Source of the DNA: an uncultured Burkholderiales bacterium
GTDB lineage: Bacteria > Pseudomonadota > Gammaproteobacteria > Burkholderiales > Thiobacillaceae
Direction: 5' to 3'
DNA length: 64,000 nucleotides
Assembly: GCA_937949525.1 (NCBI GenBank)
Contig: CALEDT010000003.1
Location: 1 to 64,000, forward strand
In this document: one piece after another, positions 1,988 to 28,314 of the stretch
Numbering within the stretch: position 1 is the first letter of the stretch
How the letters are laid out: each line of letters starts with the position of its first letter
Position numbers and translations under genes: made by a program
Notes under the pieces: model-generated
What the model saw: the letters and a program-made list of their open reading frames with translations, nothing else
Told to the model about the DNA's origin: nothing
Databases searched by the model: none

Positions 1988-2053
1988 GGCCGGCGGGCGG
2001 CGTCAGAGCGACACCGGATATCCGTGCGACAGTCCGCCCATCGGGTTGCCGAC

Positions 2054-3337
2054 ATGCGTGACATCGCCATCGCGCTGATCGTGTTCGGCGCCATCCCCTG
2101 GGCGCTCACCCGGCCCTACATCGGCGTATATCTGTGGTCGTGGATCAGCTACATGAATCCGCACAAGCTGGCCTACGGCTTCGCCGTGACGTTTCCATGG
2201 GCCTACGTCATCGCCCTCGTCACCTTCGTCAGCCTGATTCTGTCCAAGGAGCGCAAACGGCTGCCGATCACCGCGGAGACGGTGATTCTGGTGTGGTTTC
2301 TGATCTGGATGACGGTGACCACTTCCTTCGCGTTTCACCAGGAAGAGGCATGGGCGCAGTGGGACAAGGTCATGAAGATCCAGTTGTTCACGCTGTTGAC
2401 GCTCGTCGCGGTGAACACGCGCGAACGCGTGATCTGGCTGGTCTGGGTGATCGTCGGCTCGCTCGGCTTCTACGGTCTCAAAGGCGGCCTGTTCACGCTG
2501 ACCGGCGGCGGCGACTCGCGCGTCTGGGGACCGGTGGGGTCGTTCATCGCAGGCAACAATGAGCTGGGCCTGGCGATGATCGTGACCATGCCGCTGATGT
2601 GGTATTTGCGCAGCCACACGGAGAACAAGTGGGTGCGTCACGGCCTGATGGTCCTGATGGTGGCGACGCTGCTGGCGACGTTGGGTACCCATTCGCGTGG
2701 CGCCCTGGTCGGCTTGGCGGCGATGGGCAGCGTACTGTGGTGGAAGAGCCGGCAGAAGATCGCCATGTTGATGCTGATCGTCATGGCCGTGCTGGTCGCC
2801 GTTCCGTTCATGCCCGATGAGTGGCACGAGCGCATGAGCACCATCCAGACCTACGAGGAGGACGCCTCGGCGATGGGCCGCATCAATGCCTGGCAGATGG
2901 CCATCAACATGGCTTCCGATCGCCTGACCGGCGGCGGCTTCGAGCCAATCTCCCGTGCGGTCTACATGCGTTACGCACCCGACCCCAACTACGTGGTCGA
3001 TTTCCACAGCATCTATTTCGAGGTGTTGGGCGAGCACGGATTCATCGGCCTGATCCTGTTCCTGTCGTTGTTCACCGTGACCTGGTTCCGCTGTGGCAGC
3101 ATCATTCGTGCGGCCAGGCGCGATGATTCGCTCAAATGGGCCGGCGATCTGGCCGCCATGCTGCAGGTCAGCGTGGTCGGCTACGCCACTGCCGGGGCGT
3201 TCCTGGGCATGGCCTATTTCGATCTGCCGTACCACATCATGGCGATCGCGGTCATCATGTCGACGCTGATCCAGCAGCCCACCCCGGTGATCAGCGCGCG
3301 CAGGAAGCGCACGGCGCCGGATGCCGGCCAACCCTGA
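2054..3337 (+). CDS. Exosortase-A-associated O-antigen-ligase-like protein (putative O-glycosylation ligase)
   Basis: A 427-residue polytopic membrane protein with roughly ten or more hydrophobic segments and a Wzy/O-antigen ligase layout. The N-terminal stretch (TRPYIGVYLWSWISYMNPH), NNELGLAMIVTMPL, the THSRGALVG motif and the large loop with DFHSIYFEVLGEHGFIGL are what I recognise from the PEP-CTERM/exosortase-A-associated O-glycosylation ligase family. Members are thought to polymerise or transfer glycan at the periplasmic face of the inner membrane. The ATG at 2054 was preferred over a start ten codons upstream because it leads straight into the first membrane segment. The 3' end overlaps the sulfotransferase by 17 bases, indicating an operon. 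Confidence 0.85.
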   Translation: MRDIAIALIVFGAIPWALTRPYIGVYLWSWISYMNPHKLAYGFAVTFPWAYVIALVTFVSLILSKERKRLPITAETVILVWFLIWMTVTTSFAFHQEEAWAQWDKVMKIQLFTLLTLVAVNTRERVIWLVWVIVGSLGFYGLKGGLFTLTGGGDSRVWGPVGSFIAGNNELGLAMIVTMPLMWYLRSHTENKWVRHGLMVLMVATLLATLGTHSRGALVGLAAMGSVLWWKSRQKIAMLMLIVMAVLVAVPFMPDEWHERMSTIQTYEEDASAMGRINAWQMAINMASDRLTGGGFEPISRAVYMRYAPDPNYVVDFHSIYFEVLGEHGFIGLILFLSLFTVTWFRCGSIIRAARRDDSLKWAGDLAAMLQVSVVGYATAGAFLGMAYFDLPYHIMAIAVIMSTLIQQPTPVISARRKRTAPDAGQP

Positions 3338-6873: not shown

Positions 6874-7698
6874 ATGCATATCAAGACTTGGCTCAAGCAG
6901 CATTACATTCGTGTCTTCCGCACCTACGGTAGCGCGCAACTGGGGCAGGCCCTGGTCGCCCTTGGCGTCCGCGCGGGTGACGTGCTGATGGTGCATTCCT
7001 CCTGGCTTGCGACCAACGGCTTCGTCGGGCGGCCGCTGGATTTCATCGACACGCTGAAGTCCGTGCTCGGTGCGGATGGTCTGCTCGCCATGACCTCGCT
7101 CACTTATCAGAACGAGAGCTCGGCTCAGTTCCTCGCCCGGGGCGAGGCGATGAACGTGCGGCGCAGCCCGTCGCGTATGGGCTTGTTGACCGAGGTGTTC
7201 CGGCGCGGCCGCGATACCCGTCGCAGCCTCAGTCCGACCCACCCGATCCTCGCCGCCGGGCCGCGTGCCGCGGAGTTCCTGCAAGGCCACGAGCACTGTC
7301 TGGTGCCGTTCGGCATCGGCTCGCCGTTCGATCGCCTGCGCGCCTGGGGAGGCAAGATCCTCACCGTGGACGCGCCGTTTTCCACCATCACCTATACGCA
7401 CTATCTGGAGGACCGCATCGCCGATACGCTGCCCTTTCCACTTTACGAGGCCGAACCCCTGCACGGCGTGGTGATCGACTACGACGGCCGCCACCTGAAA
7501 GTGCCGGTCAAGGTATTGAGTGATCAGGCCAACCGCTTGCGCCGTGAACATCGTCTGGTGGAGCGGTTGCAGCACGCCGGACTGATGCGGGCGCGGCGCG
7601 TCGGCAACACCCGTCTGATGTTGCTCGATGCACGGGCGATGGCGCAGGAACTGCACGCCTGGACGGCATCCGGGGGCAGCCTGTTCGATGCGCCCTGA
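6874..7698 (+). CDS. AAC(3)-fold N-acetyltransferase, probable glycan-modifying enzyme
   Basis: A 274-residue protein with the hallmarks of the aminoglycoside 3-N-acetyltransferase fold: VLMVHSSWLATNGF near residue 38, SPTHPILAAGP near 118, FGIGSPFDRLRAWGGKIL near 143, and THYLEDRIA. Characterised members use acetyl-CoA to acetylate amino sugars. In this polysaccharide cluster the natural substrate is more likely an amino sugar of the EPS than an antibiotic. It is separated from both neighbours by 90-180 bases, so it may have its own promoter. Resistance activity is neither shown nor expected from sequence. Confidence 0.75.
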   Translation: MHIKTWLKQHYIRVFRTYGSAQLGQALVALGVRAGDVLMVHSSWLATNGFVGRPLDFIDTLKSVLGADGLLAMTSLTYQNESSAQFLARGEAMNVRRSPSRMGLLTEVFRRGRDTRRSLSPTHPILAAGPRAAEFLQGHEHCLVPFGIGSPFDRLRAWGGKILTVDAPFSTITYTHYLEDRIADTLPFPLYEAEPLHGVVIDYDGRHLKVPVKVLSDQANRLRREHRLVERLQHAGLMRARRVGNTRLMLLDARAMAQELHAWTASGGSLFDAP

Positions 7699-7879
7699 AA
7701 CCCGGTCCGAACATGCCAGTTGGCGCGTCAGGCGCGTCGACATCCTGCGCAGTGGCGCGGCATCGTAAACTTACGCGCCGTGACCGGCGCGCTCGGTGGA
7801 TTGCCTCGTCGTGGTGCGCCATGGCTCGAGTCCGCGCGGTCGCACGCCCGATCCCATCAGTCAGCCAACGGCGAAACGC

Positions 7880-20336: not shown

Positions 20337-21182
20337 TCAGGGACAGAACCGGCAATAGGGGTTGGCCGCGGGGGGCTTGCCGTCCTGCTCGCCGCTCGGT
20401 GGCGCGCTTTCCGGCCCACGTGGCCGGGACGGCTCCCGCACCGGTTCGCGTTCGGGCCGTTCCACCGCATCGCCGGTGACCGGCGGCGTCGCCGGAGCCG
20501 GGCTGGGTACCGGAGCGGTTGGCGATGTTGGGGGCTGCGCTGCCGGTGCAATCGGTTCCGGAAATGGCGGCTTGCCGCCAAGTTCCAGATAGCGTTGCCG
20601 CAGGCCGCGCGAATTGGGGTTGTGACGCAGCCCCGCCGTGGCGTACTCCAAGGCCTTGGCCTTGTCGCCGAGGTCGCCGAACAGGCGTGACAGTTCAAGA
20701 AACGGGGATGCTACGTTCGGCGTCAGCGATAGGGCCTGTAGGTAATCCTTCACCGCCTCGGCACGCTGTTTGCGATCCGCGTATGCCCTCGCCCGCTCCA
20801 GATAGACCTGGCCCAACATCGGGGCATCCGGCTGCGAGTTTCGGATCACGTAGTTGGCCTCGTCGATGATTTCGGCCAGCAGGAAGGCCTTCTTCGCCTG
20901 GTCACGCTCGGCAAAGTAGCGGCTGCGCAGCACGGGAATCCGGCAGTAGTGGTGCAAGCCGCCGATGCCACGTGTGAGCGCACGTTCCTGGGGTGACCAA
21001 TGCGAGCCATGGGTCAGATCGGGCGACCGATGGGTGGCGAATTTCTGGCAGTAGGAAGGCAGCATCGCGTATTCCGACGGGCTCACCTTGCCGACGTGGT
21101 AGAGCTCCGTTGCGACCGCGGGCAGGGATGCCGGGGTCAAAGCCACAACCAAAGCGATCAGGGCGGTATCAGGAGTCTTCAT
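20337..21182 (-). CDS. Secreted tetratricopeptide protein with Pro-rich tail and terminal CxxC
   Basis: 281 residues. The N-terminus (MKTPDTALIALVVALTPASLPAVA) is a signal peptide. An aromatic/Cys segment around residues 40-85 (MLPSYCQKF, GLHHYCRI) precedes TPR-like helices (AMLGQVYLERARAYADRKQRAEA-type patterns, residues about 125-205). A long Pro/Ala/Glu-rich linker then leads to the closing NPYCRFCP, which contains a CxxC pair. It likely acts as a periplasmic scaffold of the EPS assembly machinery. The 14-base overlap with the hydrolase 1 gene ties it to the exosortase-associated set. The function is unproven. Confidence 0.72.
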   Translation of the reverse strand: MKTPDTALIALVVALTPASLPAVATELYHVGKVSPSEYAMLPSYCQKFATHRSPDLTHGSHWSPQERALTRGIGGLHHYCRIPVLRSRYFAERDQAKKAFLLAEIIDEANYVIRNSQPDAPMLGQVYLERARAYADRKQRAEAVKDYLQALSLTPNVASPFLELSRLFGDLGDKAKALEYATAGLRHNPNSRGLRQRYLELGGKPPFPEPIAPAAQPPTSPTAPVPSPAPATPPVTGDAVERPEREPVREPSRPRGPESAPPSGEQDGKPPAANPYCRFCP

Positions 21183-22125
21183 GGTGGGAATGTCTATCGG
21201 TACGCCGTGCGTTCATGGCCGGCAGTCGCAGTATCCAGGCGGCCGTTTCCTGCGCAACCCGTTCGCGCCAGGCGGCACGGGAAAACGTGTGATCGGCATC
21301 CGGAATGTCGACATGATGCAGGAAAAGACGCCCCATGGTGTCCCGCCAGGTGCGTCCGCCATGCCAGAGGTTCTTGAATTCCTGAGCAGTCAGGTCATTG
21401 CCGCTCAGGACCAGCAGGGTTTCACCGGCGTAGCGATCGAGCGCCCTGCGCAAGCGCTCGGAGAGTTGCGCATCCGACGAAGGGGCGGCGTGCACGATGC
21501 CCTCGGGTGACGGCACCGTGCGGCCGAGCTGCTGCGCCGGCGAAGTGCGCCGCGTGCACGCATCGACGACCGTGTGCGCAAGCGATGCAACGGATTGCAG
21601 CACGTTGACCCTGCCTGTCATCAGCGAGCGCCAGAACCTTGGATCGGTCAGTCGGCCGACATAGTAATGCTGCAAAAGTGCATGAGCGTGCGCCTGGGTA
21701 TCCTGCACCCAGGGATTCAGCAGGGCGATGCCCGCCACCCTGTTGTCCTGCCAGGCATACAGTGCGGCCGCCGATGCGCCGTCGCACAACCCCCAGAGGA
21801 CGACCCGGCGCAGGTGCGGAACGGCTCCGGTCAGCGCGTCCACCGCGCTGCGCACGTCGTCCGCAATGTCGTCGAAACCGCGCGTGTCGCCCTCGCTGTC
21901 GCCCATGCCGCGGTAGTCGAAACGCAGCGAGGCAATGCCGCGGTCCGCCAGATGGCGCGCCAGAAGGGTGAACTGGCGATGGCTGCCGGCACGGTACTGC
22001 GGGCCGCCGACGATGATCACCACGCCGATGTCGCAGCCCGTGGTTGCAGCGGTCGGCAGGCAGACGATGCCCACCATGCGCTCGCCGTGGCACGGGATCA
22101 CGAGTGGCCGGTCGAGGTAGGGCAT
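21169..22125 (-). CDS. Exosortase A system-associated hydrolase 1 (alpha/beta fold, Cys elbow)
   Basis: 318 residues of the alpha/beta-hydrolase fold. Oxyanion-strand and early motifs are VVIIVGGPQYRAGSHRQF and LRFDYRGMGDSEGD. The nucleophile elbow reads WGLCDGASAA, with Cys114 where Ser is usual; an acid (SGNDLTAQ) and a His (DADHTF) are present near the C-terminus, so a Cys-His-Asp triad is plausible. I recognise it as the family named hydrolase 1, exosortase A system-associated. The ATG at 22125 overlaps the hydrolase 2 gene by 28 bases. It may act as a thioesterase or acyltransferase with the nearby carrier protein; that is inference. Confidence 0.85.
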   Translation of the reverse strand: MPYLDRPLVIPCHGERMVGIVCLPTAATTGCDIGVVIIVGGPQYRAGSHRQFTLLARHLADRGIASLRFDYRGMGDSEGDTRGFDDIADDVRSAVDALTGAVPHLRRVVLWGLCDGASAAALYAWQDNRVAGIALLNPWVQDTQAHAHALLQHYYVGRLTDPRFWRSLMTGRVNVLQSVASLAHTVVDACTRRTSPAQQLGRTVPSPEGIVHAAPSSDAQLSERLRRALDRYAGETLLVLSGNDLTAQEFKNLWHGGRTWRDTMGRLFLHHVDIPDADHTFSRAAWRERVAQETAAWILRLPAMNARRTDRHSHHEDS

Positions 22126-22958
22126 GGGTTCGCCAGCGTCCCGGCGCAGGCCACGGTCGCGTCCAGCAGCCGGGGGCAGACCTCGATCTCCTGCGTCTGC
22201 CAAAACTCGGCGCAGTCGACCACCTTGCCGGTCGTCGCGGTCCGTTCCCCCCAGGACTGCAACAACTGTTGCACGGACGGAGAAAGTTCATCTTCCGTTT
22301 GCCTGCGGATTTCCAGCACCACCGTGGGGGCGCGCGGGCGTATGGAGAGCAGGCGGATCTGGTCGATGGCCTGGGCCAGCCGGGGATCGAGGCGGTTGCC
22401 GGCGATCTCCACGGCCTCGCCACTTGCCAGGCGCTCGCGCAGGGTCTGCGTGGTCTCGCCGGCCGGATTGCGCAGCAGCATCTCCGCGGCCAGTTTCAGG
22501 CGCAGCAGGTGGTTGAGATAGCGTTCGCCGTTGATGACCGGCTGCCACAACAGCAGGCCATGGATGTCATCGCGGCGGGCGCTCAATTCCGCCGCCATGC
22601 TGGCGCCCAGCCGCAGCCCCCAAAGTAGGATCGGACCCCGAGCGTGTGAGCGCAGGGCGTCGAGCATCCGCTCTGCATCTTCGATCCAGATGTCCCAGCG
22701 CGCGTCGCCCGCGTCGCCGGCACTGTCGCCGCTGCCGAAGTGGTCGTACTGCAAGACCATCCAGCCTGCGGATGCGAAGCGGCGGGCCTGCAACGCCGCC
22801 ATGCGGCGCGACTTGTGCATCTCCTCACCGTAGGCGTGCAGGTAGAGGATGCCGCCGACCGGAACGCGCTGTGCCGGCCCGTAATGCAGGGTGAACAGGT
22901 CGCCCGCGCTACCGGGCAGGTAGGCCGGCTCAAGTTCGATGGCCGGCTTGGCAGACAT
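22098..22958 (-). CDS. Exosortase A system-associated hydrolase 2 (alpha/beta fold, no Ser nucleophile)
   Basis: 286 residues. Strand and loop motifs (GGILYLHAYGEEMHKSRRM, VLQYDHFGSGDSAGD, LLLWQPVINGERYL) identify the hydrolase 2 family of exosortase-A loci. The elbow reads WGLRLGAS, with Arg116 in the nucleophile position, and I find no convincing catalytic His near the C-terminus. It may therefore be a non-catalytic partner of hydrolase 1, which it overlaps by 28 bases. The ATG at 22958 is used; a GTG at 22976 is also possible. Confidence 0.83.
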   Translation of the reverse strand: MSAKPAIELEPAYLPGSAGDLFTLHYGPAQRVPVGGILYLHAYGEEMHKSRRMAALQARRFASAGWMVLQYDHFGSGDSAGDAGDARWDIWIEDAERMLDALRSHARGPILLWGLRLGASMAAELSARRDDIHGLLLWQPVINGERYLNHLLRLKLAAEMLLRNPAGETTQTLRERLASGEAVEIAGNRLDPRLAQAIDQIRLLSIRPRAPTVVLEIRRQTEDELSPSVQQLLQSWGERTATTGKVVDCAEFWQTQEIEVCPRLLDATVACAGTLANPCPTSTGHS

Positions 22959-22988
22959 GGGATCGTGGCGCGCCACCCAAGCCTGGCG

Positions 22989-23240
22989 TCAGCCTGCCCG
23001 AGTCTTCTCCTCGACGAAGCGCGTCAGGCTGCCGAGCGTCTCGAAGGTCTCGGCGCTGATCTCGTCGTCCATCACGGTGATGTCGAAGCGTTCCTCGAGC
23101 TGGGTGATCAGGCCGACCACCGCCATGGAGTCCAGTTCGGGCAGCGCGCCCAGCAGGGGCGTCGCGGCGGTCATGCCGTCGGCGCGGGCGCCGAGGTTCA
23201 GGGTGGTGGCGATCAGGTTCCTGATGTCGTTCTCGAGCAT
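22989..23240 (-). CDS. Acyl carrier protein, exosortase-A cluster type
   Basis: 83 residues, highly acidic, with the helix-loop-helix pattern of acyl or peptidyl carrier proteins. The phosphopantetheine site is LPELDSMAVVGL with Ser38 as the attachment residue; TPLLGALPELDS matches the loop before helix 2. It is the first gene of the leftward hydrolase 2-hydrolase 1-TPR set and is divergent from the GNAT-ligase-decarboxylase set only 56 bases away. It probably carries an acyl or aminoacyl group activated by the AMP-forming ligase. It is not the housekeeping fatty-acid AcpP, whose genome context differs. Confidence 0.9.
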   Translation of the reverse strand: MLENDIRNLIATTLNLGARADGMTAATPLLGALPELDSMAVVGLITQLEERFDITVMDDEISAETFETLGSLTRFVEEKTRAG

Positions 23241-23296
23241 GGGGGGTCTCGCGCGAGGCGGGTTGGGCAGACGGGCGTGGCGGCGATGTTATCCTA
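23241..23296. promoter_or_regulatory. Short divergent control region of the exosortase-associated module
   Basis: Only 56 bases separate the carrier-protein ATG from the first possible start of the GNAT-like gene, so both promoters must overlap here or extend into the genes. A TATCCT -10-like hexamer lies at 23290-23295, directly before the TTG at 23297. Neither direction has a convincing -35. The shared region suggests that the two halves of the module are controlled together. Confidence 0.35.
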
Positions 23297-24496
23297 TTGG
23301 CCATTCCATGTCCCCTTACCGCCTTGGCCGCCGATCCGTCCGTTCGGGAACCGTCGCAGATCGCCCGCACACCGGCGGCAGAGCCGGCACTGTCCGTCTC
23401 GGGACGGACGGCGTGCCACGACGATTTCGCGGCTCTGGACGAAGCTTGGTTGCGCACGCCGCCGCAACCCTGCGATGGCTTCGATCGCTGTCTGCCCTGG
23501 TTTGTGCACCTGGCACGAACCGCGCTGCCGGCAGATACCCGATTGCGGCTCTGGCGGTATCGCGACGGCGCCAGGGAAGTGCTGTTGCCCATGGTCGAGC
23601 CGCGACTGGGTTGGCGTTCGGGACGGCGCATGCAGGCCCTGGTTAACTATTACACCGCGCTGTATGCGCCACTGTGGCGTGGCGCGGTATCCGCCTCGGC
23701 ACTCCATGCGCTGTGCGCCGAGTGGGCGCGCGCCCGGCCGCGTTGGGACGTGGTGGATATGCACCCGCTGGACCCGCTGAGTGCGGATTTCGCCCTGCTT
23801 ACCCAGGCGTTGCGCGCAGCCGGCTTTCTCACCTACCGCTATTTCCGTTTCGGCAACTGGTACCTGCCCAGCCCGGGTCTGTCGTTCGCCGCGTACTGGG
23901 CGGCGCGGCCGTCGACGCTGCGCAACACCCATCGGCGCAAGGCCAGGGCCTACGCGCGGGATGGAAGGGGCCGTCTGCAGATCGTGTCCGGCGGCGATGC
24001 GCTGGAATCCGCCTTGGACGCCTACACGCGCGTCTATGCGGCGAGCTGGAAAGTGCCCGAACCCTATCCGCAATTCATGCCCGGCCTGATCCGGCTGGCG
24101 GCGCGACTGGGTTGGCTGCGCCTGGGCGTGGCCTGGTACGACGACCAGCCCGTGGCCGCACAGGTCTGGCTGGTGACAGCACGGCGCGCGGCCATCTATA
24201 AGCTGGCTTACGATGAACGTCACGCCGGTTTGTCGGCCGGCACGCTGCTCACTGCGCATCTGATGCAGCACGTGCTGGACGTAGACCGGGTCGACGAGGT
24301 GGATTACCTCATCGGCGACGAGCCGTACAAGCGCGACTGGATGAGCCATAGGCGTGAGCGCTGGGGCATCGTTGCCTACAATGCGCGTACCTGGCGCGGT
24401 TGCCTCGGCGCGCTTCGGCAAGGTCTCGGCGAATGGCGTCGCCGCGTCGCGCCGCGGCGCGACGACGAGCCGAGTCGCCCCGACCCTGGAGACTAG
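23297..24496 (+). CDS. GNAT/FemAB-like acyl or aminoacyl transferase
   Basis: About 399 residues. The C-terminal half has the GNAT-like core used by FemAB-type proteins: WYDDQPVAAQVWLV, RAAIYKLAYDERHAGLSAGTLL, then DEVDYLIGDEPYKRDWM. It likely transfers an acyl or aminoacyl group, plausibly the one loaded on the adjacent carrier protein. The start is uncertain: in this frame only TTG codons (23297 or 23324) precede the conserved part, while an ATG at 23308 is in another frame. Its stop is three bases before the ligase start codon, implying an operon. Confidence 0.75.
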   Translation: MAIPCPLTALAADPSVREPSQIARTPAAEPALSVSGRTACHDDFAALDEAWLRTPPQPCDGFDRCLPWFVHLARTALPADTRLRLWRYRDGAREVLLPMVEPRLGWRSGRRMQALVNYYTALYAPLWRGAVSASALHALCAEWARARPRWDVVDMHPLDPLSADFALLTQALRAAGFLTYRYFRFGNWYLPSPGLSFAAYWAARPSTLRNTHRRKARAYARDGRGRLQIVSGGDALESALDAYTRVYAASWKVPEPYPQFMPGLIRLAARLGWLRLGVAWYDDQPVAAQVWLVTARRAAIYKLAYDERHAGLSAGTLLTAHLMQHVLDVDRVDEVDYLIGDEPYKRDWMSHRRERWGIVAYNARTWRGCLGALRQGLGEWRRRVAPRRDDEPSRPDPGD

Positions 24497-24499
24497 ACT

Positions 24500-26086
24500 T
24501 TGACATCGCTGATACATGAACTGATCGAGGCAAGTGCGGCATCGACCCCAACGGCGCAGGCTCTGTGCGACGGCGCGCACACGTTCGACTATGGGCAACT
24601 CGCTGGCGAGACGCGCCGCGTTGCCCGGCTGTACCGGCAGATCGGCCTGGAGCGCTGGGAACGTGTGGCGGTCTACCTGGACAAGCGCCTGGAGACCGTG
24701 GTCGCTCTGTTCGGCGCGGCGGCTGCGGGTGGCGTGTTCGTGCCGGTCAACCCGTTGCTCAAGCCGGAGCAGGTGGCGCACGTGCTCATCGACTGCAATG
24801 CACGCATCCTGGTCACGTCTGCGGATCGGCTCGCCTCCCTTGCGGATGTGTTGCCGCATTGCCGCGATCTACGTGCCGTGGTGCTGGTGGGCGAGGCGAG
24901 CACCGCCGACATCGCCGGCCTGCGTCTGGTCGGCTGGGCCGAGCGCGAGCAAGCCCCCGAGGTCGCCATGCACCGCGTCATCGACCAGGACATGGCCGCC
25001 ATACTCTATACCTCGGGCAGCACCGGCCGACCCAAGGGCGTGGTGCTGTCGCACCGCAACCTGGTGGCTGGCGCGGAGAGCGTCTCCTCCTATCTCGGCA
25101 ACGACGCCCACGATCGCATCCTGTGCGTGCTGCCGTTGTCGTTCGATTACGGCCTGTCGCAGCTCACCACCGCGTTCCGCGTCGGTGCCTGCGCCGTGCT
25201 GATGAACTACCTGTTGCCGCGCGACGTGATCCGCGCAGTGGAGCGCGAACGCATCACCGGGCTGGCCGCGGTGCCGCCCTTGTGGGTGCAACTGGCGCAA
25301 CTGGAATGGCCCGCGACCGTGCGCGGGCATCTGCGCTACATCACCAACTCCGGCGGACACATGCCGAGGACGACGTTGGCTGCGCTGCGCGCGAAGCTGC
25401 CCGACACGCGACCGTTCCTGATGTATGGTCTGACCGAAGCGTTCCGTTCCACCTACCTGCCGCCGGAAGAAGTGGACCGCCGGCCGGACTCCATGGGCAA
25501 GGCCATACCCAATGCCGAAATCCTGGTGGTACGCGAGGATGGCACGGCCTGTGCGCCGGGCGAGCCCGGGGAACTGGTGCATCGCGGTATCCACGTCGCG
25601 CTGGGCTATTGGAACGATCCCGAGAAGACTGCCCAGCGCTACCGGCCCGTCCCCGGACAGTTGCCCGGCCTGGTCATCCCCGAACTGGCGGTCTGGTCCG
25701 GCGATACCGTGCGCATGGACGACGATGGCTATCTCTATTTCATCGGTCGCCGGGACGAAATGATCAAGACCTCCGGCTACCGCGTCAGCCCGTCGGAAGT
25801 CGAGGAAGTGGTCTATGGCAGCGGACTGGTTCACGAGGTGGCGGCCATCGGTGTCGCGCACCCGGTGCTCGGCCAGGCCATCGTGCTGGTGGTCCACGGC
25901 GGGTCCGGTGAGGACGCGTCCCGGACCGAGCCGCTGTTGCTGGCGTGCAAGCAGAAGCTGCCTGCTTTCATGGTGCCGGCGCGGGTGATCCGGCGTGACG
26001 TGCCGCTGCCCCGCAACCCCAACGGCAAGATCGACCGCAAGCGCCTGGCCGAGGAACTGGGTAGTCTGTTCGAGGAGCAGACATGA
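24500..26086 (+). CDS. AMP-forming acyl-CoA/acyl-ACP ligase, exosortase A-associated
   Basis: 528 residues of the ANL superfamily. The ATP-binding P-loop is LYTSGSTGRPKGVVLSHRN, the adenylate motif is YGLTEAFRSTYLP, the hinge region contains GYRVSPSEVEEVVY, and the catalytic Lys motif is NPNGKIDRKRL near the C-terminus. It should adenylate a carboxylic or amino acid and pass it to a thiol, probably the carrier protein at 22989-23240. The start is a TTG at 24500 with GGAG eight bases upstream. Its ATGA overlap with the decarboxylase gene indicates coupling. It matches the family called acyl-CoA ligase (AMP-forming), exosortase A-associated. Confidence 0.9.
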   Translation: MTSLIHELIEASAASTPTAQALCDGAHTFDYGQLAGETRRVARLYRQIGLERWERVAVYLDKRLETVVALFGAAAAGGVFVPVNPLLKPEQVAHVLIDCNARILVTSADRLASLADVLPHCRDLRAVVLVGEASTADIAGLRLVGWAEREQAPEVAMHRVIDQDMAAILYTSGSTGRPKGVVLSHRNLVAGAESVSSYLGNDAHDRILCVLPLSFDYGLSQLTTAFRVGACAVLMNYLLPRDVIRAVERERITGLAAVPPLWVQLAQLEWPATVRGHLRYITNSGGHMPRTTLAALRAKLPDTRPFLMYGLTEAFRSTYLPPEEVDRRPDSMGKAIPNAEILVVREDGTACAPGEPGELVHRGIHVALGYWNDPEKTAQRYRPVPGQLPGLVIPELAVWSGDTVRMDDDGYLYFIGRRDEMIKTSGYRVSPSEVEEVVYGSGLVHEVAAIGVAHPVLGQAIVLVVHGGSGEDASRTEPLLLACKQKLPAFMVPARVIRRDVPLPRNPNGKIDRKRLAEELGSLFEEQT

Positions 26087-27309
26087 GCGCGCCCAGGCAT
26101 GCCCCGCATCCATTCGCCGTGACCGGTGACGAGCTGGTGATCGGTGGCGTGCCGATCACCCGCTTGGCCGAGCGGGTCGGACGCACGCCGTTCTATGCGT
26201 ACGACCGTGCCCTGATCAGCCGCCGGGTCGCCGAGTTGCGCGCCGCGCTGCCGCACGACATGCATCTACACTACGCCATCAAGGCCAATCCCATGCCCGC
26301 GCTGGTGCAGCACATGGCCGGCCTGGTCGATGGCTTCGACCTGGCCTCGGCGGGCGAGATGAAGATCGCGTTGGATACGGCCATGCCACCTGACAAGATC
26401 AGTTTCGCCGGTCCTGGCAAGACCGAGGCCGAACTGCGGCGTGCAGCGGCGGCGGGCATCGTCGTCAATCTCGAATCCGAGCTGGAGATGGAACGGCTTG
26501 CCGCCATCGGCGCGCAACTGGGCCTGCGCCCCAGGGCGGCGGTGCGCGTCAATCCCGATTTCGAGTTGAAATCCTCCGGCATGAAGATGGGTGGTGGCCC
26601 CAAGCAGTTCGGCGTCGATGCCGAACGCGTACCGGCCATGCTGGCGCGCATGCGCGATCTGCCCCTGACATTCCACGGCTTTCACATCTTTTCCGGGTCG
26701 CAGAACCTCAAGGCCGAAGCGATCATGGAGGCGCAGCGCAACACCTTCGAGCTGGCACGCCGGCTTGCTGCACACGCGCCCGCACCGGTTCGGCTGCTGA
26801 ATCTGGGCGGTGGTTTCGGCATCCCCTACTTCCCGGGTGAGGAAAGGCTGGAACTCGGTCGTATCGGCGAACATCTGGCCGAACTGCTACCGGCGGCGCG
26901 CAAGGATTTCCCTGATGCGGAGTTCGTGATCGAACTCGGCCGTTTTCTGGTCGGCGAGGCCGGCGTGTACGTCAGCCGGGTCATCGACCGCAAGGAGTCG
27001 CGCGGCCAAGTGTTCCTGATTACCGATGGCGGTCTGCATCATCATTTGTCCGCGTCCGGCAATTTCGGCCAGGTGATACGCAAGAACTACCCCGTGCTGG
27101 TCGGCAACCGCCTGCACGCGTCGGGCGAGGCCATCGCCTCCGTCGTCGGGCCGCTATGCACGCCGCTGGACGTGCTCGGCGACCGGATGGCGCTGGGACA
27201 TGCCCAGGTGGGCGATCTGATCGTCGTGCTGCAATCCGGCGCCTATGGCCTGAGTGCCAGTCCGACGGCTTTCCTCGGCCATCCGGCGCCGGAGGAAGTG
27301 CTCGTGTAG
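26083..27309 (+). CDS. PLP-dependent decarboxylase, exosortase A-associated
   Basis: 408 residues of the fold-type III (alanine racemase-like) ornithine/diaminopimelate decarboxylase family. The PLP lysine is K67 in HYAIKANP; LLNLGGGFGIPYF binds PLP phosphate, IELGRFLVGEAGVYV and GPLCTPLDVL supply substrate residues, and LQSGAYGLSAS closes the site. It probably decarboxylates an amino acid to an amine that becomes part of a modification or a lipid/protein anchor. It overlaps the ligase gene by four bases and shares its transcript. The substrate is not readable. Confidence 0.9.
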   Translation: MSAPRHAPHPFAVTGDELVIGGVPITRLAERVGRTPFYAYDRALISRRVAELRAALPHDMHLHYAIKANPMPALVQHMAGLVDGFDLASAGEMKIALDTAMPPDKISFAGPGKTEAELRRAAAAGIVVNLESELEMERLAAIGAQLGLRPRAAVRVNPDFELKSSGMKMGGGPKQFGVDAERVPAMLARMRDLPLTFHGFHIFSGSQNLKAEAIMEAQRNTFELARRLAAHAPAPVRLLNLGGGFGIPYFPGEERLELGRIGEHLAELLPAARKDFPDAEFVIELGRFLVGEAGVYVSRVIDRKESRGQVFLITDGGLHHHLSASGNFGQVIRKNYPVLVGNRLHASGEAIASVVGPLCTPLDVLGDRMALGHAQVGDLIVVLQSGAYGLSASPTAFLGHPAPEEVLV

Positions 27310-27351: not shown

Positions 27352-28314
27352 TCAGACCGCCTTGCGCAGATTGTTCAGCAACATCGGCACGAATCGTGGC
27401 GGCGGGCTCCAGGCCAGTGAACAGCGCGCCAGTTGGTAGGGATCGGTGTGGCGGGTGGACACGCCGCATTGTGTCGATACCGCACCCTCCAGGCCGAGTG
27501 CTTCGACCACGCGGGCCTGTTCGCGCCGATAGTCCTTGTCCGGTCGGCCGTTGGGGTAGGCGAACACGCGCACGCGGGTGCCCAGTGCCTGTTCCAGCCA
27601 GCGGTTGCCGGCGACGATCTCCGCGCGCACCGCATCGTCGTCGAGGCCGGTGAGGATGGGGTGATGGTGGGTATGGCCGCCGATCTCCATGCCGGCCGTG
27701 TGCAGTGCCCGGATCTGCTCGGTCGTCATCATCAGGTCGTCGGGTAGCGGCGCGTCGCTGACCCGAGCGGCCAGTTCGGCGACGATCTGTTCCCGCCGCG
27801 GTGTCGGCAGGTTCTTGACCCGTGGCAGGATGTGACCGATGGCGGCCGCCTTGGCGGCGGGACTGGACACGTCGTGTTCGCCCAGGTCGAGCGGGCGCAG
27901 ATCGATGCGTCCGCTGCGCGCGTGGCGGATCGCCTCGATCACCGTGTCGTTGAACATGCGGCCGCCGTCGAGGTAGGCCGTGGCGATGAAAAAGGTGGCG
28001 TGCAACCCGTGTTTTCGCAGAATGGGCAGGGCCAGACGGTGGTTGTCGGCATAGCCGTCATCGAACGTGACGCAGGCGGCGCGCGCGGGAAGGGTGCCCT
28101 GCTTCAGGCGGGCGATGGCCTCCGGCAGCGGCAGGACGTTGAACACCGATGCCAGAGCCGCCATCTGCGTGTCGAACATCTGTGCCGTGGCCTCGAACGG
28201 GAAGATCGGGTCGACTTCGTCGAGGATGCGGTGGTAGATGAGGATGGTCAGACGCGCGCGCGGGCCGGCCGGCGACAGGGTGCTGCCGATCGATCTGTAG
28301 ATTGCGTCCAGCAT
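27352..28314 (-). CDS. Polysaccharide deacetylase family protein (NodB homology)
   Basis: 320 residues with the carbohydrate esterase 4 core. The metal/catalytic motif is VTFDDGYADN (about residues 80-89), and EIGGHTHHHPIL carries the His ligands. LTILIYHRILDEVDPIFPFE at the N-terminus is usual for single-domain members. No signal peptide is obvious. It would remove N- or O-acetyl groups from the polysaccharide, complementing the AAC(3)-like acetyltransferase. It converges on the decarboxylase gene and is divergent from aroB, making it the right border of the EPS locus. Confidence 0.85.
   Translation of the reverse strand: MLDAIYRSIGSTLSPAGPRARLTILIYHRILDEVDPIFPFEATAQMFDTQMAALASVFNVLPLPEAIARLKQGTLPARAACVTFDDGYADNHRLALPILRKHGLHATFFIATAYLDGGRMFNDTVIEAIRHARSGRIDLRPLDLGEHDVSSPAAKAAAIGHILPRVKNLPTPRREQIVAELAARVSDAPLPDDLMMTTEQIRALHTAGMEIGGHTHHHPILTGLDDDAVRAEIVAGNRWLEQALGTRVRVFAYPNGRPDKDYRREQARVVEALGLEGAVSTQCGVSTRHTDPYQLARCSLAWSPPPRFVPMLLNNLRKAV

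Follow-up and report, generated by a model that had tools for sequence, protein, structure and literature searches.

A carrier-protein module linked to exosortase A in a Thiobacillaceae bacterium and a proposed route to omega-aminoacyl groups for a surface glycan

What might a stand-alone carrier protein, an adenylating ligase, a pyridoxal 5'-phosphate (PLP) decarboxylase and two hydrolase-like proteins make together, and why should they accompany exosortase A? The question is raised by a locus at positions 20337-27309 of the window considered here, i.e., the whole stretch of 64,000 nucleotides analysed from contig CALEDT010000003.1 (assembly GCA_937949525.1) of an uncultured Burkholderiales bacterium of the family Thiobacillaceae. 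Seven genes, namely those of an acyl carrier protein (ACP), an adenosine monophosphate (AMP)-forming ligase, a fold-III PLP decarboxylase, an Acetyltransf_6 protein, hydrolases 1 and 2 and a tetratricopeptide-repeat (TPR) protein, are all found by sequence and profile matches at the positions that an earlier sequence-only reading had given them. Four of the proteins exceed the curated cut-offs of TIGR03098 (ligase), TIGR03099 (decarboxylase), TIGR03100 (hydrolase 1) and TIGR03101 (hydrolase 2), NCBIfam families of the kind hypoth_equivalog named as “exosortase A system-associated” without a mechanism. With a probability of about 0.6 for the whole, transfer to a glycan included, the module is best explained as the exosortase-A-linked version of a ligase-carrier-decarboxylase triad, as judged from sequence comparisons. 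The sequence-only reading had called the pathway undescribed, which agrees with limited literature word searches where no description was found; the association with exosortase A, however, already stands in the NCBIfam names, and it is the mechanism and the carrier-protein route that are new here.

The ACP (22989-23240, minus strand) is a stand-alone PF00550 protein of 83 residues encoded with the ligase-decarboxylase pair and bearing a DS motif (LDSM), whose Ser38 (codon 23127-23129) is the phosphopantetheine site. Its best match among solved structures is 2lki (E 4.3e-24) and its best NCBIfam match, below cut-off, is the cispentacin ACP AmcB. Ser38 is kept in 37/37 ACP homologues from the named loci, i.e., the 80 highest-ranking among 594 confirmed candidates, taken with flanks of up to 10 kb, many of them shortened by contig ends; being the best 80, these loci lean towards close relatives. 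As for the ligase (24500-26086, plus strand; 786.2 bits vs a cut-off of 592.35), VinN ranks first among single-domain proteins of solved structure (1.8e-69, 238 bits), and multi-domain LgrA entries outrank it only by summing domains (261 bits in total, about 141 bits for the best domain). When the pocket fragment alone is searched against solved sequences, VinN comes first (2.4e-15) and 4CL second (1.2e-8). In the alignment, Asp216 (25145-25147), Ser284 (25349-25351) and Arg316 (25445-25447) of the window ligase fall on Asp230, Ser299 and Arg331 of VinN (chain positions 246, 315 and 347, an offset of 16), so that the VinN-type Asp/Ser/Arg set is present. Among the 78 ligase homologues of the named loci, Asp216 is Asp in 74 with a gap in 4 and Arg316 is Arg in 76 with a gap in 2, and both are invariant in a second set of 32 relatives. 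In 4CL and in four further AMP ligases that this genome encodes, both the Asp and the Arg are missing, and three paralogues taken from the fetched regions show the Asp without the Arg; this pocket control took paralogues passing a motif filter, other weak ligase matches of the fetched regions lying outside it. Given these residues, the ligase would charge the ACP with an amino acid, probably via the side-chain carboxyl, which supports, at the level of prediction, the earlier proposal that it loads this carrier.

Alternatively, and close to the sequence-only reading, the ligase could be an acyl-coenzyme A (CoA) ligase acting on a fatty acid or some other carboxylic acid, a separate LysA-like decarboxylase making a free amine and the two products being joined later. 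Such a role is what the NCBIfam name of TIGR03098, “acyl-CoA ligase,” implies, and generic long-chain acyl-CoA ligase models reach 300.6 bits, below their cut-offs, with the amino-acid adenylation model at 262.5 bits, likewise below cut-off. Nonetheless, the VinN-type residues set the ligase apart from the four further AMP ligases compared, the pocket control thereby disfavouring a plain fatty acyl-CoA ligase, and the motif and nearest solved relative of the decarboxylase, presented below, argue the same way; this alternative is considered very improbable.

The Glu of the CExxD motif of LysA contacts the distal amine of diaminopimelate (DAP), and it is at this place that the decarboxylase (26083-27309, plus strand; 628.4 bits vs a cut-off of 478.45; Lys67 at 26281-26283) differs, having CTPLD at residues 359-363 (27157-27171), i.e., CTxxD in place of CExxD. 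CTPLD is found in 19/19 close relatives (the twentieth region fetched, L042, contains the ligase only) and in 80/80 relatives of the named loci, and CTxxD in 15/15 relatives scoring below the TIGR03099 cut-off, while CExxD is found in 8/8 readable LysA-type rows (nine tried). Among 49 solved sequences at E<=1e-5, the nearest are those of BtrK (7ru7 and 2j66; 275 and 273 bits, 8.8e-81 and 3.6e-80), which share GPLCTP with the window protein in the alignment, and the best DAP decarboxylase is 2p3e at 162 bits (2.8e-46). In a maximum-likelihood tree of 46 rows, the nine LysA rows are split from the rest at 100/100 on a long stem. The genome has its own LysA-type gene, on contig C7, with 201 bits to TIGR03099 and the motif CESGD. 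A LysA-type decarboxylase, or a supply of polyamine, is rejected for the window protein because motif, scores (275 vs 162 bits) and tree disagree with it. Most likely, the protein acts on a carrier-bound amino acid, in the manner of BtrK and VinO, and not as a supplier of free amine; where the sequence-only reading had the enzyme either supply or trim an amine, it is thus trimming on the carrier that is retained and supply that is dropped.

Taken together, the first two steps would run as follows. The ligase would take an amino acid resembling aspartate or glutamate, adenylate it at the side-chain carboxyl and load it on Ser38 of the ACP, as the ligase residues suggest, and the PLP enzyme, as its family and motif suggest, would then remove the free alpha-carboxyl on the carrier to give an omega-aminoacyl-ACP, i.e., beta-alanyl- or 4-aminobutyryl-ACP. 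Both steps are regarded as likely. Known systems offer precedents (those cited by PMC number, save PMC1569441, being given from extracts of the sources). For butirosin, BtrK converts BtrI-S-glutamate into the 4-aminobutyryl thioester by decarboxylation (PMC7857480), so that BtrK and BtrI resemble the present pair in the C-T-P-x-D decarboxylase and in a substrate carried as amino acid on a carrier. For vicenistatin, VinO decarboxylates 3-methylaspartate on VinL, thioester formation being required first (PMC11284099). The resemblance to VinN/VinL/VinO accordingly covers a stand-alone ACP, an amino-acid ligase with Asp/Ser/Arg and a PLP decarboxylase shown, in the extract, to act on the loaded ACP; that to BolO/BolC/BolN of bolagladin is of the same order, decarboxylation on the loaded ACP being proposed there, and VinO and BolN are likened to the window enzyme by description only. 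The Vin and Bol systems differ from the present one in feeding polyketide or lipopeptide assembly, whereas here the setting is exopolysaccharide (EPS) and exosortase A, with hydrolases 1 and 2, and in the VinN Lys330, replaced here by Phe. Butirosin biosynthesis has another acceptor.

The link with exosortase A, asserted in the sequence-only reading, was followed by phylogenetic profiling across a sample of 398 genomes of the phylum, where an exosortase was a PF09721 match at E<=1e-8 (79 genomes) and exosortase A (XrtA) a TIGR03109 match over cut-off, tried on these 79 (35 genomes). TIGR03099 is over cut-off in 30/398 genomes (at E<=1e-100 in 45) and TIGR03098 in 29, all among the 30, the thirtieth, G126, reaching 548.7 bits. 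XrtA and the decarboxylase are found together in 27 genomes, XrtA only in 8, the decarboxylase only in 3 and neither in 360 (Fisher p 1.5e-31, relatedness ignored); exosortase A is thus present in 27/30 genomes with an over-cut-off decarboxylase, in keeping with the claim. By the family column, the 27 span 9 families. In the 8 XrtA-only genomes, decarboxylase matches attain just 175-213 bits, the level of the LysA-type gene, and no ligase is found at E<=1e-130. Within a single family (f13), three genomes hold XrtA, ligase, decarboxylase and hydrolase 1, and six hold XrtA with none of the other three. Frequent occurrence without exosortase A and with unrelated partners had been named beforehand as what would speak against the link: it is not seen for the TIGR families over their cut-offs, although distant relatives do occur elsewhere. 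As for the genome of the window, its single PF09721 match lies outside the window on C7, which carries exosortase A (TIGR03109, 333.8 bits), the FemAB protein TIGR03019, the glycosyltransferases TIGR03087 and TIGR04063, the amidotransferase TIGR03108 and a PEP-CTERM protein.

Hydrolase 1 (21169-22125, minus strand; TIGR03100, 310.7 bits) strictly follows the combination of module and XrtA: among 80 genomes tried, it is present in 27/27 with XrtA and decarboxylase (26 over cut-off, G126 at 166.0 vs 168.45 bits), in 0/8 with XrtA only and in 0/3 with the decarboxylase only, weak matches of 61.6-79.6 bits in five further genomes being taken as other hydrolases. It has an alpha/beta-hydrolase fold and its profile matches esterase-type enzymes, e.g., 9pjb, its Cys (codon 21784-21786, in GLCDG; Cys114 when numbered from the start taken, the ATG at 22125) falling on the Ser of GLSMGG. 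Hydrolase 2 (22098-22976, minus strand; TIGR03101, 251.7 bits), of the same fold, carries an Arg where the nucleophile would be (GLRLG). For each protein 29 of the 30 homologues in the named loci were counted, one being excluded (for hydrolase 1, by score): the catalytic residues of hydrolase 1 are Cys in 29/29, Asp in 28/29 and His in 28/29, and the Arg of hydrolase 2 is found in 29/29, the same residues recurring without exception in a second set of 15 hydrolase 1 and 8 hydrolase 2 relatives. Hydrolase 2 is therefore proposed as a putative non-catalytic partner, or pseudo-enzyme, and a Cys nucleophile with a conserved dead partner fits the proposal that hydrolase 1 is a candidate thioester-dependent acyltransferase. 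In a third and less secure step, hydrolase 1, perhaps held by hydrolase 2, would move the acyl group from the thioester to the exosortase A/EPS glycan, where the acceptor may be a sugar amine freed by a neighbouring deacetylase; this transfer is put forward tentatively, at somewhat less than even odds. As a side observation, hydrolase 1 of locus L077 (3880-5916) lies inside a 679-residue open frame, either possibly fused or with its stop displaced.

Could the triad instead make a small diffusible metabolite containing beta-alanine or 4-aminobutyrate (GABA), its link with exosortase A being regulatory or historical? Fifteen genomes have a decarboxylase below cut-off, with a ligase relative in the fetched flank of 12/15 of these regions and, in some, a small ACP-like gene as judged by eye, and such distant pairs would suit a metabolite, as would G155 and G396, which keep the ACP, ligase and decarboxylase without XrtA and hydrolase 1. 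Against this stand the exact co-occurrence of hydrolase 1 with module and XrtA, the distance between decarboxylase and XrtA, below 12 kb in 17/27 genomes (below 30 kb in 19/27 and below 50 kb in 21/27), and the presence of a glycosyltransferase and a polysaccharide deacetylase beside the module even in G107, a genome without exosortase match, where the order is glycosyltransferase, an unassigned gene of 295 residues, ligase, decarboxylase, ACP and deacetylase. On balance, a diffusible product appears unlikely, and the exosortase-A-linked triad remains preferred. Split sets bear on the carrier's part in it: in G318 (contig C1; loci L165, 3233-8272, and L048), a deacetylase, a weak Acetyltransf_6 match, the ACP, hydrolase 2 and hydrolase 1 are all found no more than about 26 kb from XrtA, with the ligase-decarboxylase pair elsewhere, at 4.10 Mb of this 4.39-Mb contig, an arrangement that a linking role of the ACP would predict. 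G102 has its ligase separate from the decarboxylase, the ACP and the hydrolases.

The loci of G396 and G155 (L039 and L045, both of family f45) have neither over-cut-off exosortase A nor hydrolase 1 nor FemAB; G155 carries another exosortase, and the two sets may represent either a remnant or another use. Elsewhere, BtrK-like decarboxylases are found in open frames of about 830 residues beside small carrier-like genes, as judged by eye, at L065 (8147-10639; G197, no exosortase match) and L066 (9359-11845; G115, an exosortase outside the XrtA cut-off).

A number of observations weigh against the exosortase-A-linked triad. In the ligase, Ser284 varies among the 78 homologues (Ser 43, Thr 33, gap 2) and, in the second set of 32, is Ser or Thr except for an Ala in one; at the position of VinN Lys330, Phe occurs in the window ligase and in 76 of the 78 (gap in 2), so the substrate may differ from 3-methylaspartate. 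BtrK sits on a long branch of the decarboxylase tree and its exact place is unsure, 6knh being likewise long and unsure. The butirosin loading enzyme is not known to be of the TIGR03098-like ligase type. As for the module parts, the 80 named loci hold the ligase in 78, the ACP in 37 and hydrolases 1 and 2 in 30 each, and no ACP lies in the fetched flank of 43/80, many flanks being shortened. Three genomes retain the ligase, the decarboxylase and the ACP although both XrtA and hydrolase 1 are missing, and 16 of the 27 genomes with XrtA and decarboxylase belong to one family (f45), hence the counts are not independent. Among 38 genomes tried, hydrolase 2 exceeds 125 bits in just 12/27 (8 over cut-off) and reaches about 50 bits in 2, with no match in the remaining 13 of the 27, in the 8 XrtA-only or in the 3 decarboxylase-only genomes; it is therefore less constant or faster diverging. 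Finally, hydrolase 1 could instead be an editing thioesterase.

A further possibility concerns exosortase A itself. Exosortase is said to join its proteins to an unidentified compound, and a FemAB-related protein has been speculated to make an amino-acid-modified sugar as acceptor (both in PMC7468200). The omega-aminoacyl group of the module might then be the amine that accepts the new C-terminus of PEP-CTERM proteins from exosortase A: in the majority of such systems, a surface glycan bearing a beta-alanyl or GABA amide would present a free amine attacking the exosortase-protein intermediate, the proteins would be joined to EPS via a carrier-made omega-amino acid, and XrtA genomes devoid of the module would use an ordinary amino acid added by FemAB. 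The precedent of a seryl or glycyl amine on the type IX linking sugar, together with the exosortase speculation of the same authors (PMC7468200), would favour such a role, and among the 44 exosortase genomes without over-cut-off TIGR03109 an over-cut-off module is found in one only (G155). However, five of these 44 (G010, G014, G081, G115 and G185) hold sub-cut-off decarboxylase relatives, and what speaks most strongly against a general role as acceptor is that 8/35 XrtA genomes have neither a ligase (E<=1e-130) nor a decarboxylase above LysA level nor hydrolase 1, which also rules out that every exosortase A needs the module. By comparison, FemAB TIGR03019 is found in 35/35 XrtA genomes (two just below cut-off) and in 9/45 others (80 genomes tried), which makes FemAB a better candidate than the module where a universal acceptor is concerned. 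An acceptor role for the module is accordingly viewed as quite improbable.

The Vim/Wbp pathway of the type IX linking sugar (VimA, VimE and WbpS) resembles the present setting in combining a deacetylase, a TIGR03019-related amine acylator and an amidotransferase near a sortase-like system, and differs in attaching Ser or Gly, no carrier-protein module being mentioned in the extract. An exosortase-associated amidotransferase is listed in PMC11340318, of which the extract mentions neither “decarboxylase” nor “carrier protein,” and in the main text of PMC1569441 (Haft 2006) the terms ligase, decarboxylase, hydrolase, acyl, carrier protein and TIGR03098 are all absent. PEP-CTERM proteins and EPS are reported to be needed for floc formation in Zoogloea (PMC9012009). 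With the proposed scheme, four exosortase-A-associated families gain a concrete, testable order of reactions with named key residues, genes catalogued merely as “exosortase-associated” would be given a job, and beta-alanine or GABA becomes the chemical group to be sought on EPS and at the C-termini of PEP-CTERM proteins.

In the window, the genes are arranged in two divergent operons: on the minus strand ACP, hydrolase 2, hydrolase 1 and TPR, with one small gap plus overlaps, and on the plus strand the Acetyltransf_6 gene, ligase and decarboxylase, the last two overlapping by 4 bases. The 56-base divergent region described earlier is recovered at 23241-23296, provided that the TTG is correctly taken as start codon of the Acetyltransf_6 gene. 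The Acetyltransf_6 protein itself (23297-24496, plus strand; PF13480, 97.7 bits) has a fold of GNAT (Gcn5-related N-acetyltransferase)/FemAB type, so that its description as a GNAT/FemAB-like transferase holds at the level of this match and fails for the XrtA FemAB family, since TIGR03019 has no match to it at E<=0.01, the TIGR03019 protein of this genome being on C7 beside exosortase A. Solved relatives were absent at E<=1 in one search, and another gave six matches, none convincing, the best at E 0.03. Homologues occur near the module in 12/80 named loci at E<=1e-5; of the transfer pair formerly suggested, hydrolase 1 strictly tracks module and XrtA, but the Acetyltransf_6 protein is an optional member, possibly a candidate amine acyltransferase that, where present, may share the transfer step. 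In L038, from a genome without exosortase match, a gene of 295 residues before the ligase (6886-7770) looks GNAT-like by eye and matches neither an NCBIfam model (at 1e-6) nor a Pfam model (at 1e-5).

The TPR protein (20337-21182, minus strand; PF07719, 33.0 bits), last gene of the ACP operon, has a hydrophobic N-terminus, from which export is predicted; homologues in 3/80 named loci rule it out as a core member. Adjoining the decarboxylase, a polysaccharide deacetylase (27352-28314, minus strand; PF01522, 87.9 bits), with a homologue near the module in 16/80 named loci, is a possible maker of the acceptor amine. The window also has a profile match to TIGR03097, an exosortase-A-associated O-ligase family, at 2024-3337 and, amid glycan genes, an AAC(3)-like N-acetyltransferase at 6874-7698 (90.4 bits, below cut-off). 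A relative of asparagine-synthase-type amidotransferases (E<=1e-20) lies near the module in 31/80 named loci.

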